A DNA stretch of 64,000 bases from assembly GCA_002284875.1 (NCBI GenBank), contig CP015604.1, positions 124,001-188,000 of the forward strand, written 5' to 3'. Each line of letters begins with the position of its first letter. The first letter of the stretch is position 1. Origin of the DNA: Actinobacteria bacterium IMCC26103. GTDB lineage: Bacteria > Actinomycetota > Actinomycetes > Nanopelagicales > Nanopelagicaceae. This document shows, piece by piece, positions 2,316 to 56,423 of the stretch. The notes beneath the pieces were generated by a model. That model was given only the letters and a program-made list of their open reading frames with translations. It was not told where the DNA came from and did no database searches. The position numbers and the translations under genes were made by a program.

Positions 2316-3651
2316 TCTCTTGCAGACGCGCCAGTGATTCAATTCTTTCAACTGCATGATCAACGATTCGTTCAACATATCCTTTGGAATACCCATCTAG
2401 ATATAACCAAGGTTCATGAATCTCATCAGCTGATAAGTGAGCTAGCTCCGGAACGTATTTACGGATGTAATCTCCACTTTCATCAAAGCGTTTACCTTGT
2501 TCGATCGGATTAAATACGCGGTAATACGGGGAAGCATCTGTGCCACACCCGGCGGTCCATTGCCAGCCATGTGCATTTGATGCGACATCATAATCAACTA
2601 GATGTTTGGCAAAGAAGCGTTCACCAAGTTGCCACTCTAGATGCAGATCTTTTACTAAAAATGAGGCGACCACCATACGTGTGCGGTTATGCATCCATCC
2701 CTCGCGCACTAATTGACGCATCGCAGCGTCAACAAATGGGTAGCCAGTCTTTCCGTCACACCATGCTTGAAATTGCTTACCCGGCTTGTCATATCTCATC
2801 TGATTAAACCTAGGTGCGTAATACTCTGTATCGGTATTTGGATTATTAAAGAGCACATCGGCATAAAATTCACGCCAAGCAATCTCTTTACGGAAAGTAT
2901 CATGTGCTTTGCTTTCACCGAGATTTGCAAGCAGCGTGCGGGGGTGTATCTCGCCAAACTTTAGATAAGTACTCATCTTCGATGTGCCATCAATTCCGGC
3001 AAAGTTTCGATTTTCATCATATGAATCAAGACCGCTCTTTGAAAAACTCTTAAATCTTGTAAGTGCTGCTTTCTCACCAGCTTGGATCACCTGCACATCT
3101 GCTGGCATAGGAAAATCAGGAAAAGCGCGGTATTTATCTGGTGGAGTTGGCGCACTGATCTTGCTCGGAGTTTTAGCTGGTGCGCGCCAACCGTGCGTTA
3201 ACCAAGCGCGATAGAAAGGAGTGTAAACCCGATAAGGCGTGGCATCACTAGGTTTTAATACTCGACCCGGTTTAACAGCATATGGACTACCAGTTCTAAT
3301 AAGTTTTATTCCGGCTGCTTCAACACGAGCATCTCGTTCTGCACCGTATCTCTCGTATTCATCAGAGATATGGACTTCGTTGACTTTATATAACTCAATT
3401 AATTCGCGCAGAACTTCAACTTGATCGCCTTCAATGATGTGTAACTTGTTACCGAGTGAATCATCTAGTGCTTGTAAAGATTGGCCCATATACGCCAAGA
3501 GTTTTTCGCCAGCTTCAGCAATTTGTGACTTATCTAAAATAAAAAGGGGAATTACTTCATCGCTAGATTCGATAGCAGCCAATAACGCAGGGTGATCACC
3601 GATTCGCAAATCTCTACGAAACCAGATGATGTTGCGGCGCGGAGCGGACAT
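2284..3651 (-). CDS. phr: Deoxyribodipyrimidine photo-lyase
   Basis: A class I cryptochrome/photolyase of 455 residues from the ATG at 3651; a TTG four codons upstream is less likely. The N-terminal antenna domain starts IIWFRRDLRIGDHPAL, and the C-terminal FAD-binding domain carries GWMHNRTRMVVASFLVKDL and NAHGWQWTAGCGTD, the family's most conserved blocks. It repairs UV-induced cyclobutane pyrimidine dimers using blue light, which suits a sunlit-water organism. It follows citrate synthase on the same strand by 49 nt and its 3' end runs 32 nt into the diguanylate cyclase gene on the other strand. Confidence 0.93.
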   Translation of the reverse strand: MSAPRRNIIWFRRDLRIGDHPALLAAIESSDEVIPLFILDKSQIAEAGEKLLAYMGQSLQALDDSLGNKLHIIEGDQVEVLRELIELYKVNEVHISDEYERYGAERDARVEAAGIKLIRTGSPYAVKPGRVLKPSDATPYRVYTPFYRAWLTHGWRAPAKTPSKISAPTPPDKYRAFPDFPMPADVQVIQAGEKAALTRFKSFSKSGLDSYDENRNFAGIDGTSKMSTYLKFGEIHPRTLLANLGESKAHDTFRKEIAWREFYADVLFNNPNTDTEYYAPRFNQMRYDKPGKQFQAWCDGKTGYPFVDAAMRQLVREGWMHNRTRMVVASFLVKDLHLEWQLGERFFAKHLVDYDVASNAHGWQWTAGCGTDASPYYRVFNPIEQGKRFDESGDYIRKYVPELAHLSADEIHEPWLYLDGYSKGYVERIVDHAVERIESLARLQEIKEDKPELPR

Positions 3652-3700
3652 GGCGCTATTCAACCACTATGCCCTGGAGAAGGTTTATCGAAAGTGTTTG

Positions 3701-4816
3701 CTAGCCGTGCAACATTCCGACGGATTCATCCCAACCATCGACATCTTCTGGATTGCGTGGGCCTTTACCGACATAACGCGCAGATGGGCGGATCAAACGT
3801 CCGGTTCGCTTTTGCTCAAGGATATGCGCAGACCATCCTGCGGTACGTGCAGCGGTAAACATCGAAGTAAAGAGCGGTGCTGGTACCTGTGCGAAGTCCA
3901 AGATAATCGCGGCCCAGAATTCCACGTTTGTCTCTAAAACACGATCTGGTTGACGCTCGCGAAGTTCCTTTAGCGCTGCTTGTTCTAGCGCTTCAGCAAC
4001 TGCATAACGTGGAGCATTTAGCTCTTTTGCAGTGCGGCGAAGTGTGCGGGCGCGTGGATCTTCGGCGCGATAAACGCGGTGTCCGAATCCCATCAAACGC
4101 TCTTTGCGATCTAGTAAACCTTTTACATAAGCGGTGGCATCACCAGTTTTTTCAACTTCTTCAATCATATGTAAGACACGAGATGGTGCTCCACCGTGAA
4201 GTGGGCCAGACATCGCGCCGATTGCGCCAGAAATTGCTGCGCAAACATCTGCACCAGTTGATGCGATTACACGGCCAGTAAATGTTGATGCGTTCATTCC
4301 GTGTTCTGCTGCAGATACAAAGTAAGCATCGATTGCGCGAACGTGAAGAGGATCTGGCTCTCCACGCCAACGGATCATCATGCGTTCAACAACTGTATGC
4401 GCCTTATCAACTTCTGATTGCGGAACCATTGGTTGCCATGTTCCGCGAGCGGCTTGTGCTAAATATGAAAGAACCATTACAGATGTACGAGCTAAGTTGC
4501 TGCGCGCTTCTTCATCTGAAATATCAAGTAGTGGTTTAAATCCCCAGGCCGGTGCCAACATTGCAATTGCTGATTGAATATCTACGCGCACATCACCTGA
4601 GTGAACTGGAAGCGGAAATGGTTCAGCATTTGGAAGACCTGGATTAAATAGATCGTCCACGAGCAGACCCCATACGTTGCCGAAGGTAACGCGACCTACG
4701 AGGTCATCGATATCGACGCCGCGATAGCGAAGCGCACTTCCTTCTTTATCTGGTTCTGCAATTTGTGATTCGAAGGCGATAACGCCTTCCAGGCCGGGTT
4801 TGAAATCATCTGACAT
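3701..4816 (-). CDS. citA: Citrate synthase (short actinobacterial type, CitA-like)
   Basis: Condenses acetyl-CoA with oxaloacetate at the entry of the TCA cycle. The 371-residue protein begins at MSDDFKPGLEGVIAFE and keeps the catalytic triad: His207 (GPLHGG), His246 (FGHRVYR) and Asp307 (ILDFAQVP). An open frame continues 342 nt further upstream but runs antisense through pdxH and has no homology-like content, so ATG 4816 is chosen. The order citA, divergent pdxH, then serC is the same group seen in other actinobacteria. The 97-nt space to pdxH must hold both promoters. A second, longer citrate synthase may exist elsewhere in the genome. Confidence 0.92.
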   Translation of the reverse strand: MSDDFKPGLEGVIAFESQIAEPDKEGSALRYRGVDIDDLVGRVTFGNVWGLLVDDLFNPGLPNAEPFPLPVHSGDVRVDIQSAIAMLAPAWGFKPLLDISDEEARSNLARTSVMVLSYLAQAARGTWQPMVPQSEVDKAHTVVERMMIRWRGEPDPLHVRAIDAYFVSAAEHGMNASTFTGRVIASTGADVCAAISGAIGAMSGPLHGGAPSRVLHMIEEVEKTGDATAYVKGLLDRKERLMGFGHRVYRAEDPRARTLRRTAKELNAPRYAVAEALEQAALKELRERQPDRVLETNVEFWAAIILDFAQVPAPLFTSMFTAARTAGWSAHILEQKRTGRLIRPSARYVGKGPRNPEDVDGWDESVGMLHG

Positions 4817-4913
4817 GCTCCAATTCTGCACCTTCCAAGGGGGTGCTGACGACCACTGATCCAAGAATTCACTTAAAGGTGACGCAGAGGTAAAAGTGAG
4901 GTTCGATACATCT

Positions 4914-5573
4914 ATGAGCGAACTCGATCGTGAAGCTATCCGTGCCATGCGCCGTTCGTATGGCGAAGTTGGTCTGGAGTCATTGCCCGATAATCCATTC
5001 ACCGCTTTCGCTGGCTGGTTAAAAGAGGCATCTGAAAATTCATTTATCGTTGAGGCAAATGCCATGGTGCTTTCCACTCTGGGCGATAACGAACATATTT
5101 CAACGCGGACTGTTCTCTTAAAAGATATCTCTGAAGGCGGATTTACCTTCTTTACCAATTACTCATCGCGTAAAGCACAAGCAATTGAGTTAAATTCACA
5201 AGTCACACTGTTATTTCCTTGGTATGCAATGGAGCGCCAAGTTTCAATTAGCGGCTTTGCTGAAAAAATTAGCGATGCCGAATCTGCCGAATATTTCGCA
5301 ACGCGCCCTTGGTCTAGCCAAATTGGTGCATGGGCAAGCGCACAATCAGCGCCACTTGCATCGCGCGAAGAGTTGGAACAACGATTTGCTGGTGCATCTG
5401 AAAAATGGCCAGAAGGCTCGGTAGTTCCAAGGCCACCGTATTGGGGCGGCTATCGCATTACACCAATCAGTATCGAATTTTGGCAGGGGCGATATTCGCG
5501 ACTGCACGATCGCCTGCGCTATGAGCGGGCTAACAGCAGCGCTAAGTGGGAGATCACTCGCTACTACCCTTAG
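4914..5573 (+). CDS. pdxH: Pyridoxamine 5'-phosphate oxidase
   Basis: FMN-dependent oxidase that converts pyridoxine- or pyridoxamine-phosphate to pyridoxal 5'-phosphate. The 219-residue protein starts at ATG 4914 (MSELDREAIRAMRRSYGE); a GTG at 4896 would add six residues not typical of the family. Recognisable blocks are NPFTAFAGWLKEA, TRTVLLKD, FFTNYSSRKAQ (FMN and phosphate binding), ATRPWSSQIGAWAS, and the C-terminal WGGYRITPISIEFWQG...RLHDRLRY, which carries substrate-binding residues. It is divergent from citA and followed 9 nt later by serC, itself a PLP enzyme. Confidence 0.93.
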   Translation: MSELDREAIRAMRRSYGEVGLESLPDNPFTAFAGWLKEASENSFIVEANAMVLSTLGDNEHISTRTVLLKDISEGGFTFFTNYSSRKAQAIELNSQVTLLFPWYAMERQVSISGFAEKISDAESAEYFATRPWSSQIGAWASAQSAPLASREELEQRFAGASEKWPEGSVVPRPPYWGGYRITPISIEFWQGRYSRLHDRLRYERANSSAKWEITRYYP

Positions 5574-5579
5574 TCTTAG

Positions 5580-6701
<1,122 letters not shown>

Positions 6702-6707
6702 TCCGCG

Positions 6708-7871
6708 ATGCCAAAAACTTTTCAACGCAACGGACAGTTCTGGCTGCTTGCGCTGCAAGTTGCGACAGTAAATTTCTTTACCGGCGGATTTGGTCCATCC
6801 CAGGCTTTATTGCGTGAGGATCAAGGAACTTCACTCGGCGTGGCAGGCCTTCACGGCACCGCCATGGGAGTGGCTGCAATTATCGCCGGTGGTCTTAATT
6901 CAAAGTTGGTTCATCGCTATGGCCGTTCCAACACAACTTGGATTGGTTTAACCGTATTTTCAATTGGAATTACCTGCTTTGTCTTTTCTCCCCCAGTGCA
7001 ATTAACGCTTCTGGCGACTCTCATAGCTGGCTTTGGAATTTCGGTTGTAATTAACAATGTAAATACCGCCGGATCACATGCCTTTGCCGAGCGTTCACAC
7101 ACTGCGGTTGCGCAAATAAACGCAGTTGCGATCGCAGGATTTGTAACCGGCAACTTTATTATCGGAACAACTGCAAATATTGTTCGTGATCAATGGCGCC
7201 TTGGACTCTTGATCACAATTCCATTTGCTTTGGCGCTATTTATTAAGGGGCGACAGTACGAGCCAGACTCTCATATTCCAGATGAAAATGGCCCACAACG
7301 CGGAAGGCTTTCTAAAGGATTCTGGTTCTCATTTACTGGCTTCTTCATCTCAATTAGCGCTGAGTTTGCAACTTCTTTCTGGTCAGCATCACTAATTAGC
7401 GATCGCACCGATGCGAGCGCAGCGATCTCGACTCTTGCTGTAATCGCCTTTGGTACAGGCGTTGGCACAGGGCGTTGGTATGCCGGACGCGTATTAAAGA
7501 GATTCCATGCCGATGAACAATTAAAGATCGCACTTTCACTGCAATTTATCGCCTTCGGGCTCTTCTGGTCTTCTCATATCTTGGCGCTATGTCTAATCAC
7601 CTTATTTTTTGTAGGACTTGGGATTTCAGTGCAATTTCCACTGTTTACTCTTCGCATGGTCGCCTTTAGTGAGGGTCGTCCTGATTTAGCGATCGGTAAG
7701 AGTTCTATTGCAGCTGGAATTGCTATCGCTTGTTCGCCTTTGCTACTTGGCATATTGGGAGATAACTTCGGAATTTCTCGCGCCTACATTATGGTCCCAG
7801 TTTTAATCGCACTTGGATTTACTATGGTTTCATTATCTCCATCCAAGCACCTCGGCGCGAATAATATTTAA
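6708..7871 (+). CDS. MFS transporter, substrate unknown
   Basis: A 387-residue, 12-helix major facilitator protein with no extra domains. The loop after the second helix carries SKLVHRYGRSNT, a version of the MFS A-motif region, and the central cytoplasmic loop is short (GRQYEPDSHIPDENG). It begins 6 nt after the serC stop, which suggests co-transcription, but nothing in the sequence tells the substrate. Its stop codon TAA is directly followed by the ATG of a 26-codon hydrophobic ORF. Confidence 0.85.
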   Translation: MPKTFQRNGQFWLLALQVATVNFFTGGFGPSQALLREDQGTSLGVAGLHGTAMGVAAIIAGGLNSKLVHRYGRSNTTWIGLTVFSIGITCFVFSPPVQLTLLATLIAGFGISVVINNVNTAGSHAFAERSHTAVAQINAVAIAGFVTGNFIIGTTANIVRDQWRLGLLITIPFALALFIKGRQYEPDSHIPDENGPQRGRLSKGFWFSFTGFFISISAEFATSFWSASLISDRTDASAAISTLAVIAFGTGVGTGRWYAGRVLKRFHADEQLKIALSLQFIAFGLFWSSHILALCLITLFFVGLGISVQFPLFTLRMVAFSEGRPDLAIGKSSIAAGIAIACSPLLLGILGDNFGISRAYIMVPVLIALGFTMVSLSPSKHLGANNI

Positions 7872-7952
7872 ATGAATTACCGCACCCGTCGCTTAGTTAC
7901 CGCACTTACTTTAATTGGAATATTAGCGTTGATCATCGTAGGTGGCAGGTAA
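7872..7952 (+). CDS. Possible 26-residue single-helix membrane microprotein
   Basis: ATG at 7872 abuts the TAA of the MFS gene with no spacer, a layout that suits translational coupling. The peptide has a basic N-terminus (MNYRTRRLV) followed by a hydrophobic helix (LTLIGILALIIVGG) and ends with Arg. This positive-inside single-pass design is not what random sequence usually gives. The last 30 nt overlap the 3' end of the opposite-strand MFS gene, which could alternatively explain part of the composition. No known family is recognised. Confidence 0.35.
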   Translation: MNYRTRRLVTALTLIGILALIIVGGR

Positions 7953-9191
7953 TACGCCTTCCACTGAGATATCTTTCGGCAATTTAATTTTATTGTGAAA
8001 GATCGCCCAGATTGTCAAGCATGCTCCAAGTGAGATAAGCCCGCACAAAGCAATTGTTTGGCGAACTCCAAATACTTCAACCAACCAACCAATAAGCGGT
8101 GAACCAAACGGTGTTCCGCCCATAAAGATAAGTAAGTAAATGCCTGATACACGCCCGCGAATTGCTGGGTCAGAGTTAACTTGAATTAAAGAATTAGCGG
8201 TAATTAGCATGGTGAGTGCGCTAAGTCCACAAAGCGGTAACCAGAGTGAGTACCAAGTATAAGTGGGTGCAATTGATAAGAAAGTAATGGCGAGCGAGAA
8301 CGCCACACCACCTCTAATAACAAATATGGTCCGGCGAAAACGTTCCAAACGGGCCGAAATTAGCGCACCTGATAGCGAACCAATTGCAACGTATGTACCT
8401 AATAGACCGTATGACGCTGGTCCTTTTCCAAATTCTTTCGTCGCCATAAGCGCGTTAAAGATCTGCATATTGAGACCAAAGGTGGCCACGAAAAAGACGA
8501 CCAACATCACCACATAAAGATCTGGCCGCGCTAGTGCATATTCCAGACCTTCACGCACCGTGCCCTGGGTGACTTTCTTCTCTTGGATAAAGAACTCAGA
8601 TTCACGCATCCGCAGCAGCGCCAGAATCACGAATAAGTAAGTAAAAGCATTAATTAGAAATGATGGCCCAGTATCAAAGCGTGCGATTAGAAAGCCCGAT
8701 AGCGCAGGGCCAACTAAGCGCCCAGCGTTGAAATTAGCTGAGTTAAGACTTACCGCGTTTGCGATATCAGAATGGCCAACGATTTCTGAGGTGAAGGATT
8801 GGCGAATCGGCGCATCAACTGCCGAGGAAATTCCCAAAGTTAAAGCGAAGAAAAATACATGCCATACCTTCACATGACCGGCAAGAACTAATATCCCAAG
8901 TCCTAGTGAAGATAACGCACCGACAAAGTTGGTGGCAATTAATAATTTACGTTTATTTACGCGATCGGCGAGTGCGCCACCTTGCAGTGAAAAGAAAAGT
9001 ACCGGTGCAAATTGAACTGCTGTTACTAAACCGAGATAAGTGCCACTGTTATTTGTAAGTTGGAGAATTAGCCAATCTTGGGCAACGCGTTGGGCCCACG
9101 TGCCGATATTTGATGCGGCATTTGCCGGAAAGAGGATTCGGTAATTGCGGTGGCGGAAGGAGCGCCAGTTACCGTCTGCTTTTACCGCCAT
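7923..9191 (-). CDS. MFS transporter of the enterobactin-exporter-like (MFS_3) type
   Basis: A 422-residue, 12-helix MFS protein. The N-terminus FRHRNYRILFPANAASNIGTWAQRVAQDWL is typical of the EntS/MFS_3 efflux subgroup, and GGALADRVNKRKLL is the A-motif between helices 2 and 3. Position beside DUF2530, cspB and DUF3027 genes mirrors the mycobacterial Rv0871-Rv0884 neighbourhood, where an MFS gene is also found. The substrate is unknown. Its start faces the start of the DUF2530 gene on the other strand with only about 18 nt between them. Confidence 0.85.
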   Translation of the reverse strand: MAVKADGNWRSFRHRNYRILFPANAASNIGTWAQRVAQDWLILQLTNNSGTYLGLVTAVQFAPVLFFSLQGGALADRVNKRKLLIATNFVGALSSLGLGILVLAGHVKVWHVFFFALTLGISSAVDAPIRQSFTSEIVGHSDIANAVSLNSANFNAGRLVGPALSGFLIARFDTGPSFLINAFTYLFVILALLRMRESEFFIQEKKVTQGTVREGLEYALARPDLYVVMLVVFFVATFGLNMQIFNALMATKEFGKGPASYGLLGTYVAIGSLSGALISARLERFRRTIFVIRGGVAFSLAITFLSIAPTYTWYSLWLPLCGLSALTMLITANSLIQVNSDPAIRGRVSGIYLLIFMGGTPFGSPLIGWLVEVFGVRQTIALCGLISLGACLTIWAIFHNKIKLPKDISVEGVLPATYDDQR

Positions 9192-9209
9192 CGCTTGTAT
9201 GCTTCCTTT

Positions 9210-49834: not shown

Positions 49835-51026
49835 CTCCATCGACTTTACCTGTCGTATCAAATACATACGGTGCAGATTTAAGAACCGCACTCTTATCCA
49901 TCGCTGAGTGCAGCGTAACTACGATTGCAATTTCAGAGCCCCCGAGTGCACTTGATTCTTGACCGTGCCAATTTTTTACAATCGGATCGTGCCAAGAAGT
50001 GATTGCTCCTTGGGAATTTAACTCATCAATCACTAATTCAGCAGGAGTTTCTCGCACATCAGCAACATCTGGCTTGTAGGAAACTCCAATAACTTGTACA
50101 CGTTTACCCTTGAGAGTGCCACCATTATCGGCGGCAACCCGCTCAACAATGTATTTAGGCATCTCAAGGTTTACCTCATTGGCGCGCTGGATGAAGGTAG
50201 CCGGAACACCCATTTCTGCGGCGACGTGGGCCAAATAACTTGGGTCAACCGGGATGCAATGTCCGCCCACACCGGCACTTGGGCTAAATTTCATAAAGCC
50301 ATAAGGCTTAGTGTTCGCCGCATCTAAAGTTTCGTGAACTGAAATACCGAGTGCATGAGCGATCTCAGCAAATTCATTAACGAGTGCGATATTGACCTGA
50401 CGGAAAGTATTTTCAAATAACTTAGCCGCTTCAGCAACTTCAGGTGAAGAAACTTCAACTAAATTGTCGCAAAATGTCGAATAAAAAGATCTAGTCCGAT
50501 CCGAGGCTTGTTTAGTTAATCCGGCAAATAACCGTGGTGTGTTCTTTTGATTCCAGTCCACTCGGCCCGGATCAACGCGCTCTGGCGAGATCGCATATAG
50601 ATGTTCAATTTTTGCTGCGGAGTACTTTTCGACTCCTGGCTTTATATAGTGGCGCAAAGTACCCGGAAATGATGTTGATTCATTAATAATTAAAGCCGGT
50701 TTTTTAAGTGAAGAGCCAATTGTCTTGCAAGCAGATTCAATGAATGATAAATCTGGCTTTCTATCCTTCGTCAAAGGAGTTGGTACAGCAATAACCACAA
50801 TTTCAGCTTCGGAAATATCACTGGCATTTGTGGTTGCCCTGTAATTTCCCGCAGCAATAGCAGAAGCTAGATCCTTCGAGTCAACGCCTTCTATATGAGA
50901 AATTCCCTGATTTAGACGAGACACATTTTCAGAGTTATTATCAAAACCAATAACTTGGTGGTGTTTGGAAGCAAAGGCCGAAATTGTCAGCCCAACGTAG
51001 CCCTGCCCGATTATTGCTACCTTCAT
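49821..51026 (-). CDS. UDP-sugar (UDP-Glc/ManNAc-type) dehydrogenase
   Basis: A 401-residue NAD-dependent enzyme that oxidises a UDP-hexose or UDP-HexNAc to the uronate. IIGQGYVGLTISAF is the NAD motif, VVIAVPTPLTKDRKPDLSFI is conserved, and GVGGHCIPVDPSYL carries the catalytic Cys. IQRANEVNLEMPKYIVERV resembles WecC/WbpA-type enzymes more than UDP-glucose dehydrogenases. Its start overlaps the ligase-like gene by 4 nt (ATGA). The product would be an acidic sugar for a surface polymer. Confidence 0.88.
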   Translation of the reverse strand: MKVAIIGQGYVGLTISAFASKHHQVIGFDNNSENVSRLNQGISHIEGVDSKDLASAIAAGNYRATTNASDISEAEIVVIAVPTPLTKDRKPDLSFIESACKTIGSSLKKPALIINESTSFPGTLRHYIKPGVEKYSAAKIEHLYAISPERVDPGRVDWNQKNTPRLFAGLTKQASDRTRSFYSTFCDNLVEVSSPEVAEAAKLFENTFRQVNIALVNEFAEIAHALGISVHETLDAANTKPYGFMKFSPSAGVGGHCIPVDPSYLAHVAAEMGVPATFIQRANEVNLEMPKYIVERVAADNGGTLKGKRVQVIGVSYKPDVADVRETPAELVIDELNSQGAITSWHDPIVKNWHGQESSALGGSEIAIVVTLHSAMDKSAVLKSAPYVFDTTGKVDGAIGL

Positions 51027-52738
51027 TGTTTAGGCACATCAAAAATATTTGGGTTACGCGAATCAAGTCTCAATAGATTCTCTTTTGCAAGCGCTTTATC
51101 TTCAGGCGTTGCCTTCTGAACGTAATAAAGCATCTTCCAAGCATCAAAGAAGTCAGGATTGAACTCGACACCAATCTTGGCGTACTTGTACGAAAGGTCA
51201 TAGAGTTTGTTAGCTTCAAGAAGCTGGGATGCACTGGCATAGCGATATGAATTTTGTGGATTTAAATAACTAGGTACTAAAGACTTTTCAATTTCAGCAA
51301 CATTTCCCGAACCAAGGGCTGCCTTCCACTTTGAATCAGAGCTATATGGTGGAACTGCCACCAATAGCCCGACAAGAGCTCCAATTATCCCCGTCATAAA
51401 TGGTGAAATACCCACGCTTTGCTTTGCTTTAGCCCGATTTTTACCACCACTAGATTTGTTCTCTCGAGTTTCTTCATCTGTAGACGAGCGCGTAAAGCGT
51501 TCGTATGCAATCAAGGTTCCACCAAGCAGCCAGCCCCAGATGGCAAGACCGATTTGATTGATACTGATTATTGACTGGACCTGGTAACAAACCCAGGCAA
51601 CAGCTAAACCAATAAATGTGAAGTTAAATTCTTTGCTACGTAAAGTCACTTTGATTATTGCAATTACTACAAGAATTAGAATCGCTAAATAGGCAATCAG
51701 CATAGGCCAGCCACCATAGGCGAGTTGGTCCATAACAACATTGTGTGACGCATTTGAAATAGTGTTGGGTCCTGGATTAATCAGCGCGTGGTCATTGCGA
51801 AGTCTGCGATACCAATCACCGTAGGTATCCATTCCCACACCGGAGAAGGGGAATTTAGCCGCCATGTTCCAGCCAGCGTGCCAATACTCACCACGTAAAG
51901 AAACTGAGTTCTTATAAATTAATTGAGTAAGGGGACCTTTTTGCAGCGCACCCATTACCGATACAAGGCCTAAAACAGCTACTAACGCTGAATACACAGC
52001 AGGAATTAAAGTTGATTTAAACCTTGCGCGAAGGAAGTAGAAGCCCACTATCGCCATGCCGCCGGCGGTAACAACTATTCCTTGAATCGCATGCGAGGAC
52101 TTAATTTCATAAAATGTAATGAGCAATATAACTGAAGATATAGATCTAATTAATATAGATACCTTGGGTTGCACTAAATACGCAAAGAGCACGCTTGCAA
52201 AGATTCCTAGAAATGCACCCACAAAATTTGGGTTACCAAATGTTCCTAGGATATTGCCGTATGGATTTGTCCAACCAATAAAATCACCAAATGTGACAAC
52301 CCAGAGCGAATAAATGCAATTGATAAGACCTGCAGCCAGCAATCCATAACTAATTTTTAGGAAACTTAACTTATTTGATAGCCCTAAGGTTGCTACAAAA
52401 AGTAATGCCAGCAATAAATACGTTACTAACCCTGAATTTCGTCCATAAGCACCATAAATAAGCTGTGTTAAAGGAGCTTCGCTCTGAACAACTGAATTTA
52501 AAACTGTCGCAAGGAAGATAATTAAGGCGACTAATGCGCCTTTGTGCTCTAACCAAATACGCTTGGCGCCAAATGAAATCGCAATGGCAACACCTGCGCC
52601 AGCAACTGCTCCGAGAGCTAAGAGCTTGGTGACATTTACAGGATCAGTTACGGTTCCCCAAGCGACAAGGATCGTGACAAAAGCCGAACCAACCATTAAC
52701 AAATTCGCTAACGTTTTTTCCGAAGCCGTATTCAACAT
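51023..52738 (-). CDS. O-antigen ligase/polymerase-family membrane protein
   Basis: A 571-residue protein with about 12 helices and a large loop near helix 8. SLRGEYWHAGWNMAAKFPFSGVGMDTYG and NTISNASHNVVMDQLAYGGW are the outside loop of the Wzy_C/O-antigen ligase family, with the conserved His. The C-terminal ~100 residues are soluble and helical, TPR-like (YLNPQNSYRYASASQLLEANK, VEFNPDFFDAWKML). It would join or polymerise a lipid-linked glycan outside the membrane; it could also glycosylate a protein. Confidence 0.82.
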   Translation of the reverse strand: MLNTASEKTLANLLMVGSAFVTILVAWGTVTDPVNVTKLLALGAVAGAGVAIAISFGAKRIWLEHKGALVALIIFLATVLNSVVQSEAPLTQLIYGAYGRNSGLVTYLLLALLFVATLGLSNKLSFLKISYGLLAAGLINCIYSLWVVTFGDFIGWTNPYGNILGTFGNPNFVGAFLGIFASVLFAYLVQPKVSILIRSISSVILLITFYEIKSSHAIQGIVVTAGGMAIVGFYFLRARFKSTLIPAVYSALVAVLGLVSVMGALQKGPLTQLIYKNSVSLRGEYWHAGWNMAAKFPFSGVGMDTYGDWYRRLRNDHALINPGPNTISNASHNVVMDQLAYGGWPMLIAYLAILILVVIAIIKVTLRSKEFNFTFIGLAVAWVCYQVQSIISINQIGLAIWGWLLGGTLIAYERFTRSSTDEETRENKSSGGKNRAKAKQSVGISPFMTGIIGALVGLLVAVPPYSSDSKWKAALGSGNVAEIEKSLVPSYLNPQNSYRYASASQLLEANKLYDLSYKYAKIGVEFNPDFFDAWKMLYYVQKATPEDKALAKENLLRLDSRNPNIFDVPKQ

Positions 52739-52794: not shown

Positions 52795-52834
52795 CCGAAA
52801 CCCGGCCCCCTCATAAGAGGGAACCGGGTTTCGG
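52795..52834 (-). terminator. Strong stem-loop terminator after the surface-protein gene
   Basis: An 11-bp perfect stem (CCGAAACCCGG / CCGGGTTTCGG, 52795-52805 and 52824-52834) encloses a second 5-bp stem (CCCTC / GAGGG) around ATAA. On the minus strand it lies 28 nt after the surface-protein stop, followed by CTTT. It separates that gene from the O-antigen-ligase-like gene. Confidence 0.85.
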
Positions 52835-52862: not shown

Positions 52863-54773
52863 TTAAGCCTTTACCTTCTTCTGGATCTTAACTACGAGGT
52901 TAGTCAAAGCAGTGATCTGTGCACGAAGTGCTGAGATCAAGCTTGTGACCTGTGCTGATAGCTCTGCAACTGCATCTACGGCCTCTTGTGCCATAGCTGT
53001 TGCTGCTTCTGCTGCTTCTGCTGCAGAAAGTGCTGCATCAGTTGCATCATTTGCTGCTGCTGTTGCTTCTTCTGCTGCAGCTTGTGCTGCACCTGAGTCA
53101 GGTGTTGAAGTTGTTACAGAAATTGTGCGTGCAACAGCTGACTTAGCTGTTGTAGCCATTGTTCCTGTTGTGTACTTGAACACGAATGTTCCAGAGTATG
53201 CAGGCATGTATACCTTGTAAGTTACAACGCCATCAACTGTTCCAAGACCACCGTTTGGTGTTGTTGTACCTGTGATAGTTGCAGATGATGAACCAAGGGC
53301 TACTGGAGCCACGATTCCACCTGTTGCAAATACTGTGTAAGTATCTGGAGCAAGGATCAAACCAGCTGCATCAACAGGTTTTACTGTGATTACTGCTAGT
53401 TCGCCTGGGAGGTATGAAGCTTTGTCGAATGTAACAAGCACATCGTCAAGCTTGGTTGCGCCGCCACCTACGCGGATTGATACTGAGTTTGCATCTACAC
53501 CAGTAGTTGCAGCAGCAGATGACTTAGTTCCAACTGTGACTGATGCAGTTCCTGCAGCAACACCAGTAACAGTTACGTAGTAACCCTTATCTGTTGTGTC
53601 GTAAGCAACTGTCTGAGATGTGTAAGCACCTGAGATTGTTGCTGTAGCTGAAGAAGTTACATACATAGTTGTGATGTTTGAAACTGATACACCGGCTGCA
53701 TCTTCAACCTTGACAAGAATTGTATTTGCAGTCGCTGCTGCAGTTCCAATTACGCCAATAGCTGCTGTTGCAGTTGCCTTTGTAGCTGTTCCGAAGAATG
53801 TAAGTGTCTCAGTTGCGAGAACTACACCTAGTGCTGACTGGATTTCAATAGTTGAAACTCCTGAAGATCCATCGCCGAATACTGCAACAACGTTATTGCC
53901 GCGTACAGTGATTGCACGTCCACGTGCATCTGCTGTTCCGCCACCTGCTGTTGCTGCGTATGTGTTAGTTAGTGCACCAGAACCAAGAAGTCCAGGACCT
54001 GACTTAACAATAGCTGTATAAGATTCACCAGTTGTTGTAACTCCTGCTGCATTCTTCAAGGTTACCTTGATGTACGCAACTTGGTTAGATGCTGATGAGA
54101 TAGCAGCTGTTGCAGCAGTTTGTGCAGTCTTTGAGGCTGTGACTGTTGCATCTGTTGTGTTTGTTGTATCTCCAGAAGTAGTGATGATAGATGTTGCAGA
54201 AGTTGCAACAGTATCTGTCAAAGGATCTGCAGTAACGGTAACTGTCAAAGTTACGTTAGCTGAGTTCTTGACTCCACCACCATTTGTTACAGCTGGTGCC
54301 AAAGTGAGAACATATGTTCCTGCCTTAACTCCTGCTGCTTCAGAACCTGTAGCTGCTACCAAGTTGACCTTGAACTTTGCAGTTACGTACTTTGTATCAG
54401 CTGATGGGCTGACATAAGCAACCTGGTTCAACTTGTCGCCAACGAGGCCAGCTGCTGCAGTGATGCGGCTTGTGCTCACGAAAGCGTTTGAAGTTTCAGC
54501 AAGTGTCAACTGTGGAACAGCTGTGCTTCCTGCTGGTGCTGAAGTTACATAAGCTGTAACTGTCATTGAGTCTGTTGTTGTTTCAGCGTAGAAAGCAACT
54601 GTCGCAGTCTGAGCTGTCGATGTTTCGCTATCTTTCATTGAAGCTGTAGCAGCTGAGAGAGTTAGTGTGTCTGCTGAAGTTGCAGCCGTTGAAGGCACAA
54701 CTGACATAACACCAAAGCCCAACGCAGCAACAGTTACAAGCGCTATGCGCTTGAAAGTTGTCTTTGTAGACAT
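52863..54773 (-). CDS. S-layer-like secreted surface protein (candidate)
   Basis: A 636-residue exported protein from ATG 54773 with an AAAGGA ribosome site; the frame upstream of this is a leader, not coding. Signal peptide: MSTKTTFKRIALVTVAALGF.. to about residue 31. The mature protein has no cysteine and is dominated by Ala, Thr, Ser, Val and Gly in repeated beta-strand-like segments. The last ~80 residues change to an Ala/Glu-rich helix and then a Leu/Ile heptad stretch with a basic end (ALTNLVVKIQKKVKA). Composition, long leader and terminator suit an abundant S-layer-type protein. Directly upstream is a membrane-tethered sigma factor. Confidence 0.75.
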   Translation of the reverse strand: MSTKTTFKRIALVTVAALGFGVMSVVPSTAATSADTLTLSAATASMKDSETSTAQTATVAFYAETTTDSMTVTAYVTSAPAGSTAVPQLTLAETSNAFVSTSRITAAAGLVGDKLNQVAYVSPSADTKYVTAKFKVNLVAATGSEAAGVKAGTYVLTLAPAVTNGGGVKNSANVTLTVTVTADPLTDTVATSATSIITTSGDTTNTTDATVTASKTAQTAATAAISSASNQVAYIKVTLKNAAGVTTTGESYTAIVKSGPGLLGSGALTNTYAATAGGGTADARGRAITVRGNNVVAVFGDGSSGVSTIEIQSALGVVLATETLTFFGTATKATATAAIGVIGTAAATANTILVKVEDAAGVSVSNITTMYVTSSATATISGAYTSQTVAYDTTDKGYYVTVTGVAAGTASVTVGTKSSAAATTGVDANSVSIRVGGGATKLDDVLVTFDKASYLPGELAVITVKPVDAAGLILAPDTYTVFATGGIVAPVALGSSSATITGTTTPNGGLGTVDGVVTYKVYMPAYSGTFVFKYTTGTMATTAKSAVARTISVTTSTPDSGAAQAAAEEATAAANDATDAALSAAEAAEAATAMAQEAVDAVAELSAQVTSLISALRAQITALTNLVVKIQKKVKA

Positions 54774-54937
54774 TTGTTTCCTTTCGATAGTCGAACCACG
54801 GACGATCCGTAGGTCGGCTCGGAGTGAACTAGTCACTCCTTCTCGATACATCGCACGTGCTGATGTATCAAATTCCCCGCCGTGTATCCGGACGCGACGG
54901 AGAAATCTATTTAGGTGAAATTTCACGTGCTTCACCG
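54774..54937 (-). promoter_or_regulatory. Long hairpin-rich 5' leader of the surface-protein gene
   Basis: Between the sigma gene stop and the surface-protein ATG, 164 nt contain five inverted repeats (plus-strand coordinates): ACGGA/TCCGT 54798-54810; GGAGTGA/TCACTCC 54821-54839; GATACATC/GATGTATC 54845-54869; a G-C-rich stem 54877-54900; GGTGAA/TTCACC 54914-54936. The ribosome site AAAGGA lies after the last hairpin, outside any stem. Such leaders protect mRNA of abundant proteins or carry control. It belongs to no riboswitch I recognise. Confidence 0.65.
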
Positions 54938-56305
54938 TTATGCCTTACCTTCAGTCACAAGTACTGACTGAGATAAAATTTGTGTCTTGCCTGAATTGAG
55001 AACAAGTCGAGTTGTTATCGACTTGATAGGACCTGTTAGGTCGAAGCCGCGGCTTCCCACGGGGATAAAGAACTCTGAAGTTGGGGTTGAGACTACGAGA
55101 ATTCTAACGGTCACAAGGTACTGCCCGTTGGACATCCGCTCAAAATCGGCCGTTGTGGCGCCGAGGTTAAGTGGGGTCCAGCTTCCTGCAACACCGACTG
55201 ATACTCCGCTTACGGAGTATGTGGTGCCGTTGCCATCCACTGTGATGTTCTGAGAGATCATCACATTTGGGCCACCTACCGCGGTGATGGCCTGGGTGTT
55301 CAACTCTGTTCCGGCTTCAGTGGCCGTTGGCGTATTTCGGTTCACACGCAATGTGCCTGGTGTGCCGTTATCGGTCGCAACAGTAAAACCTGTTGGGATC
55401 CCGTCTTTATCTAGACCTGGGAATGAAAGCTTGGCTGATTTGATTGCAACGCCTGAGACCATGGTGTTGGACTTCTTAGCTGGCATTGAGATAGATGGTG
55501 TTGGGGTGCTTGCCTCAACTGGTGCAACTGCCTCTGATGATCCGGCAACTGCGCCGGATGCAATCTCAGATGGAGCGGTTGGGTTGATCGTCACGCCTTC
55601 GCGGCCAGTCATTGAGTTAAAGCCTAAGAAAGCAGTGATAACCAATAGTAATGAGAGCGCAACTTTGGAAGATTTCTGGGCAAGCTCTGCTGCCTTCTTA
55701 TAAGTAGTAGAAAGCATGTCCAGTGCTGTTAGGCCACGCTCTTCGTCGATAACGAGTTCTGACAAGACGCGGCGAAGGGAAGTACGAGCGCGAGAAACAG
55801 TGTGGCGCACTGCAGATTCCTTGATGCCAAGTTCTGCTGCGATCTCCTCTGTTGAGCGGCCTTCCATTTCCCACATAACAAGCGCTGCGCGCTCAGCAGG
55901 TGAAAGAAGTGCAAGTGCTTGACGAATGATTGCTGCATCTTCTGCAGCAGAGATTGCCTGTGAATGATCGCCATCTACCTGCCAGGCAGCTTCAACTTCA
56001 GCCTGGGCATCGTCGATAACCACAAGGTTAGGACGGCGGCCTTCAAGGCGGAACAAGTCGATGCAGAGGTTTTCGATGGTGCGGTGTAGATAAGAAAGAG
56101 CATGATCATTTGATTCAAGCTCTGGGGCTGCGAGCATGAACTTAATCAACGCATCTTGGGTGATTTCTTCAGCTTTAGCGGAATCCTTTAGGACGCGGTT
56201 TGCGTGGGCAAGAAGCTCTGAACGGTGCTCTGTGTAGAAAGCACCGAGCTCTGCGACGGTCCACACACGGGGACCTGCAGAAGCTGCAGACTTCTTAAAT
56301 GCCAC
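54938..56305 (-). CDS. ECF-type sigma factor fused to a membrane helix and extracytoplasmic domain
   Basis: A 455-residue protein starting at a GTG with AAGGAAG upstream. Residues 20-88 are sigma region 2 (ILKDSAKAEEITQDALIKF-like, SYLHRTIENLCIDLFR) and 129-182 region 4 (LSPAERAALVMWEMEGRSTEEIAAELGIKESAVRHTVSRAR). Residues 214-229 (KVALSLLLVITAFLGF) form one membrane helix, then a Pro/Ser/Thr linker (260-280) and a beta-rich ~170-residue outer domain with no cysteine. So the DNA-binding half is inside and a sensor-like domain outside in one chain. No anti-sigma gene is adjacent; the surface-protein gene is next downstream. Confidence 0.85.
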   Translation of the reverse strand: MAFKKSAASAGPRVWTVAELGAFYTEHRSELLAHANRVLKDSAKAEEITQDALIKFMLAAPELESNDHALSYLHRTIENLCIDLFRLEGRRPNLVVIDDAQAEVEAAWQVDGDHSQAISAAEDAAIIRQALALLSPAERAALVMWEMEGRSTEEIAAELGIKESAVRHTVSRARTSLRRVLSELVIDEERGLTALDMLSTTYKKAAELAQKSSKVALSLLLVITAFLGFNSMTGREGVTINPTAPSEIASGAVAGSSEAVAPVEASTPTPSISMPAKKSNTMVSGVAIKSAKLSFPGLDKDGIPTGFTVATDNGTPGTLRVNRNTPTATEAGTELNTQAITAVGGPNVMISQNITVDGNGTTYSVSGVSVGVAGSWTPLNLGATTADFERMSNGQYLVTVRILVVSTPTSEFFIPVGSRGFDLTGPIKSITTRLVLNSGKTQILSQSVLVTEGKA

Positions 56306-56423
56306 TTTGGGACTTCCTTTTTAACCGGTTTTGTATTTCAGCGACACCCGTCGGTGCCTCTATAGCCTTCTACGAATCCTAGCCCTAGATGTAGCGGGGA
56401 AGGGACAAAACGGACATTTCGAA

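Follow-up and report, generated by a model that had tools for sequence, protein, structure and literature searches.

Can a sigma factor that is built into the membrane control the surface protein gene lying next to it, and by which route? We considered this question in a window of 64,000 nucleotides from Actinobacteria bacterium IMCC26103 (CP015604.1, positions 124,001-188,000; coordinates are relative to the window), where the gene of a membrane-tethered sigma factor of the extracytoplasmic function (ECF) type is followed on the same strand by that of a cysteine-free S-layer-like protein (SLP). A first-pass annotation had proposed that the two form a surface-sensing system with the sigma factor and the sensor on one chain. 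Our analysis adds two elements that had not been foreseen: a conserved, structured RNA leader between the two genes, and an ECF-type promoter core before the sigma gene, whose conservation and uniqueness in the genome favour one autoregulated operon.

The sigma chain and the conserved gene order

The two genes and the parts of the sigma protein are:

54938..56305, minus strand: membrane-tethered ECF-type sigma factor, 455 amino acids (open reading frame, Pfam, homologues and AlphaFold2)
56036..56239, minus strand: sigma region 2, residues 23-90 (Pfam Sigma70_r2, 47.3 bits against a cut-off of 24)
55775..55930, minus strand: sigma region 4, residues 126-177 (Pfam Sigma70_r4_2, 50.3 bits against a cut-off of 25.7)
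55610..55666, minus strand: single transmembrane helix (about residues 214-232), lying between a conserved KSSK and a conserved GFNS (hydropathy and homologue alignment)
54941..55438, minus strand: outer all-beta domain, residues 290-455 (AlphaFold2)
52863..54773, minus strand: SLP, 636 amino acids, with a signal peptide, tandem Ig-like domains and a C-terminal helix at 560-635 (open reading frame, signal peptide by eye, structure model)

Pfam, hydropathy and AlphaFold2 agree with the earlier description of sigma regions 2 and 4, one helix and an outer beta-rich domain on a single chain, and the coordinates of both genes hold. The sigma open reading frame begins with GTG and is preceded by the ribosome site AAAAAGGAAG. 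In Pfam, Sigma70_r3 stayed below its cut-off (14.9 bits against 25.3), and the chain has sigma2 and sigma4 only, with no sigma1.1 or sigma3, which is the domain content of an ECF (group 4 sigma-70) factor. Segments above a hydropathy threshold were counted in 57 near full-length homologues taken from 76 loci, five of which were dropped because the cut range overran the stop codon near its end. Each of the 52 stop-free homologues has exactly one such segment, SSKVALSLLLVITAFLGFNSM in the window, which excludes the suspicion that the helix is a frame artefact. The juxtamembrane stretch between sigma4 and the helix, GLTALDxLSTTYKKAAELAKKSSK, is conserved as well.

The AlphaFold2 model, made with 53 sequences, has helices for both sigma domains and a confidently all-beta fold for residues 290-455, where ten-residue blocks score 83-95 and the last block 77. 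The helix at 216-227 is of low confidence, and the whole chain has a mean predicted local distance difference test (pLDDT) score of 71.4 and a predicted template-modelling (pTM) score of 0.40. The outer domain, which the first-pass annotation did not recognise, was not recognised by sequence either: a profile search against PDB sequences found no match, Pfam gave nothing over cut-off for the window protein, and across 41 members its matches were weak only (best E 0.0038, 4 members). Structure searches used the whole sigma model, and their lists were filled by the sigma half and not by the outer domain. The window sigma also has no zinc-finger match in Pfam, and whole chains of the 52 homologues contain 0 to 2 cysteines.

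The pair is conserved, and the count of its adjacency that the first-pass annotation had called for is therefore positive. Searching the genome collection at the protein level yielded 76 sigma loci, of which 75 (L136-L210) were scanned with a covariance model of the leader and one (L211, a 29-residue match) was left out. The leader is present in 61 of the 75, which are all 61 loci with enough sequence past the sigma gene; in the 14 leaderless loci the sequence stops no more than 14 bases from the sigma match. All 57 loci in which 40 or more bases remain 3′ of the leader have an SLP-type start there, 54 of them recognised by pattern and three (L203, L171, L178) by eye. Within a first set of 33 sigma loci (L035-L067), an SLP start follows the sigma gene in 26; five of the other seven are too short (L041, L051, L053, L061, L064) and two are distant sigmas (L066, L067). 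Sigma gene and leader are adjacent, in the same order with SLP, in at least 8 genera. Compared with the window proteins, sigma is 44-94% identical (n=52) and SLP 34-77% (n=23), ranges that come from overlapping, non-identical sets of loci.

Among sampled genomes, the leader was found in 56 of 151 of the family Nanopelagicaceae (9 of 17 genera) and in 70 of 151 of the order (9 of 15 genera), the two samples overlapping. The module is hence common and not universal, or it has been lost from some draft assemblies. Eight draft contigs (L104, L105, L111, L112, L113, L115, L118, L125) break within about 400 bases of the leader, a pattern that hypervariability of the SLP gene among the cells of a population would predict. 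In L163 the whole sigma-leader-SLP cassette is tandemly duplicated (2603-9196), with copies 77-93% identical in the five repeat families shown. In phages, the sigma search gave two weak matches that cover the sigma domains only.

The structured leader between the two genes

The leader and its parts are:

54774..54905, minus strand: structured RNA leader with four hairpins between sigma and SLP (alignment, covariation and folding)
54873..54904, minus strand: hairpin P1, with the conserved loop UCCGGAUA (covariation)
54845..54869, minus strand: hairpin P2, with an ACGU loop (covariation)
54821..54839, minus strand: hairpin P3, variable in sequence and length (single-sequence folds)
54792..54816, minus strand: hairpin P4 (covariation)
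54779..54785, minus strand: GAAAGGA, presumably the SLP ribosome site (conserved in the leader alignment)
54774..54935, minus strand: open reading frame through the leader, in frame with SLP (open reading frame list, homologous leaders)

The existence of an RNA structure here is strongly supported. Twenty-six intergenic regions could be aligned over about 120-175 bases 5′ of SLP, and RNAalifold recovered P1, P2 and P4 from them, with compensatory changes in 24 of 40 predicted pairs. In the named structure, 96.4% of cells are paired and 23 of 32 pairs show double changes. There are 109 double-change cells against 31.6 in shuffles, none of 500 shuffles was as high, and versions of the structure slid along the alignment reach at most 19. 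A second set of 26 leaders gave 91.8% paired cells and 154 double-change cells against 48.4 (again 0 of 500 shuffles), with slid versions at no more than 40; none of these leaders was used to build the covariance model, though they were cut out by it, and one locus (L200) is shared with the first set. Since the named structure was drawn up by hand from the alignment on which it is scored, and since relatedness can lift sequences above shuffles, the shuffle and slide controls are to be read together. The window leader alone folds at -60.1 kcal/mol (z -4.75).

The loops of P1 (UCCGGAUA) and P2 (ACGU) are nearly invariant; exceptions in P1 include L103, L118, L132 (G014) and L123. In three loci, L049 (G014), L123 (G147) and L103 (G169), similarity of the sigma protein stops in the outer part, and the adjoining leaders have P1 missing or its loop changed. 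Judged from these sequences, the outer domain and P1 may have been exchanged together. By eye, the 5′ strand of P1 (GUUUCCU) might pair alternatively with the SLP ribosome site, which we offer as speculation.

Searches against the 4227 families of Rfam with the leaders of the window and of L148, L185 and L171 gave no match at gathering score, and the sub-threshold matches of the window leader were at chance level (best E 1.2); a known riboswitch is accordingly rejected. The leader is thus a concrete candidate family for Rfam. No second copy was found in the genome of the window. A single match on a viral contig (L224), beside open reading frames of phage-structural appearance, looks by eye like chance, and leaders on phage contigs were set aside.

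The open reading frame raises the alternative that the leader is mainly coding, either as an N-terminal extension of SLP or as a leader peptide whose translation is coupled to the sigma stop, and that the RNA fold is of secondary importance. Of 54 distinct leaders, 40 are open in frame 0, compared with 6 and 9 in the two remaining frames. Because the conserved motifs themselves introduce stops into those two frames, the spacing between the ACGU loop and the SLP start is the better evidence for a frame. This spacing falls in one class modulo 3 in 46 of 57 entries (genome G014 being counted twice), with 9 different lengths inside the main class and 6 outside it. Moreover, an ATG overlaps or abuts the sigma stop (TAAATG) in several genera. 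Against a coding role, changes in the stems swap amino acids freely and keep the pairs, both loops are nearly invariant at wobble positions too, and the frame is lost in part of the window's genus where the fold is kept. A conserved ribosome site also stands directly before the MSTKT start of SLP. We therefore regard a mainly coding leader as very improbable and continue with the leader as a structured RNA.

The sigma promoter and a proposed surface operon

The elements upstream of the sigma gene are:

56359..56394, minus strand: ECF-type promoter core CTACA-N16-GT-N9-TAGA (exact motif in relatives)
56340..56361, minus strand: hairpin whose GACG loop is invariant, situated where the sigma mRNA presumably begins (covariation)
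56403..56418, minus strand: direct repeat TGTCC-N4-TGTCC, AATGTCCGTTTTGTCC (upstream of the sigma promoter; conserved in one of two promoter clades)

Two clades of upstream sequence have in common the order CnACA-N16-GT-N9-TAGA and then the GACG-loop hairpin, and we take the core to correspond to the -35 and -10 elements of an ECF promoter. Among the 70 loci that extend 230 bases or more upstream of sigma, 63 have the exact core, and the remaining seven retain CnACA-N16-GT and deviate in TAGA; in mononucleotide shuffles the core appears at a rate of about 0.0003 per locus. Three loci with shorter upstream sequence were set aside, two of which have the core. For the hairpin, 64 double-change cells stand against 17.3 in shuffles (0 of 500 as high), and the count of pairs with double changes is weaker, with 36 of 500 shuffles as high. 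Its alignment rows were chosen by the TAGA and GACG marks, so that 63 of 70 is the fairer count for the core. The repeat AATGTCCGTTTTGTCC is the only exact copy in the window's genome, copies with three mismatches are at the level of the backward control, and the repeat is perhaps an operator, judging from its sequence.

In its own genome the core occurs once exactly, and the backward control also gives one match. No further target with the exact core was found there; at one mismatch the related pattern gave one other site, against two in the backward control. A conserved, genome-unique core of the ECF type suggests that the sigma factor drives a single autoregulated operon. According to this proposal, the sigma factor would recognise the promoter of its own gene, and the transcript would span sigma, leader RNA and SLP, cotranscription being suggested by the failure to find a conserved promoter between sigma and SLP. 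Through stabilisation or processing of the message and presentation of the ribosome site, the leader would then raise or gate SLP output in relation to sigma. We consider such a self-contained surface operon, in which a tethered sigma drives its own operon carrying leader and SLP, to be rather probable on the sequence evidence.

A different origin of the SLP message would be a constitutive promoter of its own, either within the 3′ part of sigma or immediately ahead of the leader, which would then only stabilise the mRNA; the sigma factor would have a separate job at a locus that moves as a block. Long stable leaders do occur on coat-protein genes, and an A/T-rich, TAAATA-like sequence lies just 5′ of P1 in some leaders. 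However, the region just before P1 differs between genera, no conserved promoter-like element was found, and codon conservation does not rise over the last 15 usable sigma codons, which is a weak test. The adjacency of sigma and leader in 8 genera and in 61 of 61 long-enough loci also speaks against such independence. We judge this explanation unlikely; a separate conserved promoter before SLP is disfavoured, and a variable one may exist. The first-pass annotation had looked for a sigma-dependent start upstream of 54773, of which the same weak test gave no sign, and a structured leader stands there instead. The surface-sensing idea is supported in part, in its fusion protein, its conserved pair and its lack of an adjoining anti-sigma factor.

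How would the sigma half become active? The membrane tether would keep its activity low until, probably, a protease cuts the chain within the membrane, in the conserved helix or close to it. Either the only M50 (site-2) protease of the genome or its only rhomboid could release the cytoplasmic half. As the weakest step, the outer beta domain might monitor the condition of the envelope or the surface protein. Alternatively, the sigma could be active while anchored and uncleaved, with SLP made and exported beside the envelope. The helix is present in all 52 homologues tested, which suits this explanation, and cleavage is a step that we infer. A membrane-bound RNA polymerase would on general grounds be restricted in its promoter search, and proteolysis is expected to release such fused factors, according to PMC8999054. 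An active anchored sigma is in our opinion improbable. Returning to the operon with a releasable sigma, we note that sensing of the SLP layer by the outer domain, cleavage of sigma and formation of an S-layer, all put forward in the first-pass annotation, gained no support here and stay proposals.

Several points weigh against the operon proposal. The loci are related to one another, so their counts are not independent. The distant sigma relatives L066 and L067, outside the family, gave no SLP start, and L067 has more than 700 bases after its sigma open reading frame. In G014 the sigma open reading frame has 337 amino acids and its similarity to the window protein ends near residue 289, and the pair is still there. 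Some genus members at 98-99% completeness have no leader match (e.g. G053, G232, G243, G249), which makes the module dispensable if the region is not simply absent from those draft assemblies. The window's genome has four Sigma70_r2 genes and the promoter core could serve another of them; the core is short, and targets with looser sites would be missed. A variable, unconserved promoter may precede SLP, the link between outer domain and SLP is one that we infer, and the operon is a prediction from sequence alone.

Relatives, known systems and flanking genes

In the family sample, six genomes have more than one leader match (G043, G128, G140, G169, G186, G245). A tyrosine recombinase lies within a few kilobases of an SLP leader in all of them except G245, compared with a recombinase match anywhere in 11 of the other 145 genomes; Pfam Phage_integrase was over cut-off for two examples. 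G050, G054, G268 and G270 in the order sample also have several leaders; the recombinase comparison covered the family sample. Where both copies are on one fetched stretch (G128, G140, G169, G186), the SLP genes converge between inverted repeats:

L100 7062-12001, L101 6346-13278, L102 6911-12239 and L103 6275-14292: convergent SLP pairs bounded by inverted repeats, each with a tyrosine recombinase lying between the genes or to one side

The first repeat comprises leader P3-P4 and the signal peptide (145-186 bases, 83-96%), and the second the 3′ region of the SLP genes (210-287 bases, 86-93%). The sigma gene and P1-P2 belong to one SLP copy only. In sequence, this arrangement looks like an S-layer inversion switch, in which one sigma-leader expression site would serve alternative surface proteins. 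An inverted state was not seen in these genomes. A swap of SLP copies between related genomes was sought as proof of inversion and not seen; copies within a genome are most alike in G140, G128, G169 and G043, and not in G186. Lactobacillus slpA and Campylobacter fetus sap are invertible S-layer loci. The convergent SLP genes, inverted repeats and recombinase of the relatives resemble these and the invertible cell-wall protein locus cwpV of C. difficile. In contrast to them, the arrangement is read from sequence only and is absent from the window's genome, which has one SLP and no such recombinase.

A more ambitious proposal makes the leader a new class of cis-acting RNA that gates SLP synthesis, read in frame by the ribosomes of the sigma gene or bound by a partner, so that together with an envelope-sensing tethered sigma it would give two-level feedback on the coat; in some genera P1-P2 would also mark the active site of the inversion switch. 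We hold this to be possible and rather doubtful.

Tethered ECF factors are already known as a type. ECF48, ECF52 and ECF53 of Actinobacteria (SCO4117 being ECF52) have a C-terminal membrane-spanning extension and a zinc finger, with proteolytic release expected, according to PMC8999054. The window sigma likewise has a C-terminal extension with a transmembrane helix (one or two by their criterion, one in all 52 homologues here). However, it lacks the zinc-finger anti-sigma part, for which reason it is not placed in these groups; moreover, neither PDB sequences nor Pfam (over cut-off) contain a counterpart of its outer domain, and an RNA leader connects its gene with SLP. A sigma factor and a membrane-bound control part are also joined on one chain in IutY of Pseudomonas putida (ECF243), whose release by intramembrane proteolysis has been experimentally characterised (PMC8999054). 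IutY serves iron-starvation cell-surface signalling, whereas here, in an actinobacterium, the partner gene encodes a surface protein.

By sequence, the nearest sigma of known structure is SigL of M. tuberculosis (E 6.7e-11), and SigE, SigL and SigH of that species are within the top eight Foldseek rows for the sigma model. To our knowledge, these three have no fused membrane helix or outer domain. Canonical ECF factors with a separate membrane anti-sigma differ from the window sigma, which has a methyltransferase gene (PF13578) upstream on the same strand and SLP downstream, and no adjoining anti-sigma gene, anti-sigma genes elsewhere in the genome not having been sought; the first-pass annotation was right on this point. 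In the open PubMed Central literature, including work on lake bacteria and their phages (PMC10202952, PMC9426551 and PMC12143481), we found no description of the sigma-SLP pair or of the leader, which does not prove its absence from print.

In common lake bacteria, the locus brings together in little space a sigma factor, a hypervariable surface protein and a conserved RNA with no Rfam match, and its presence in cultured strains makes the question of a surface circuit testable there. Cultured Planktophila with the module include P. lacus (L158), P. versatilis (L145) and the isolate LanE-43 (L176). Lytic phages were raised on LanE-43 and two were isolated, according to PMC10202952, which offers a ready test of SLP as a receptor.

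SLP itself is an Ig-like surface protein by its model. The window protein has zero cysteines and a signal peptide judged by eye; the signal peptide and the 76-residue C-terminal helix are conserved and the middle diverges. Foldseek placed the S-layer chain 7ptp first (E 1.5e-10) and the Sap chain 9g93 third, with weak superposition (template-modelling score 0.2-0.3), and VIA-align placed FdeC first (Z 12.1, 278 residues, root-mean-square deviation 16.2), with SbsC, invasin and Sap lower. Both lists also contain Ig-like strings of unrelated proteins (complement, integrin). SLP thus shares tandem Ig-like domains with the H. volcanii S-layer protein, B. anthracis Sap, SbsC, FdeC and invasin, and differs from them in its weak superposition, in having no sequence family that we could find, and in its conserved C-terminal helix. 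That SLP forms an S-layer is a likely guess from the model. No second SLP was found in the window's genome.

Beyond SLP the strand continues with:

52798..52831, minus strand: strong hairpin 3′ of SLP, a possible terminator (read from sequence)
51023..52738, minus strand: O-antigen-ligase-like protein, Wzy_C, PF04932 (Pfam), the next gene after SLP

A relative of the Wzy_C gene is present on 19 of 36 fetched stretches.

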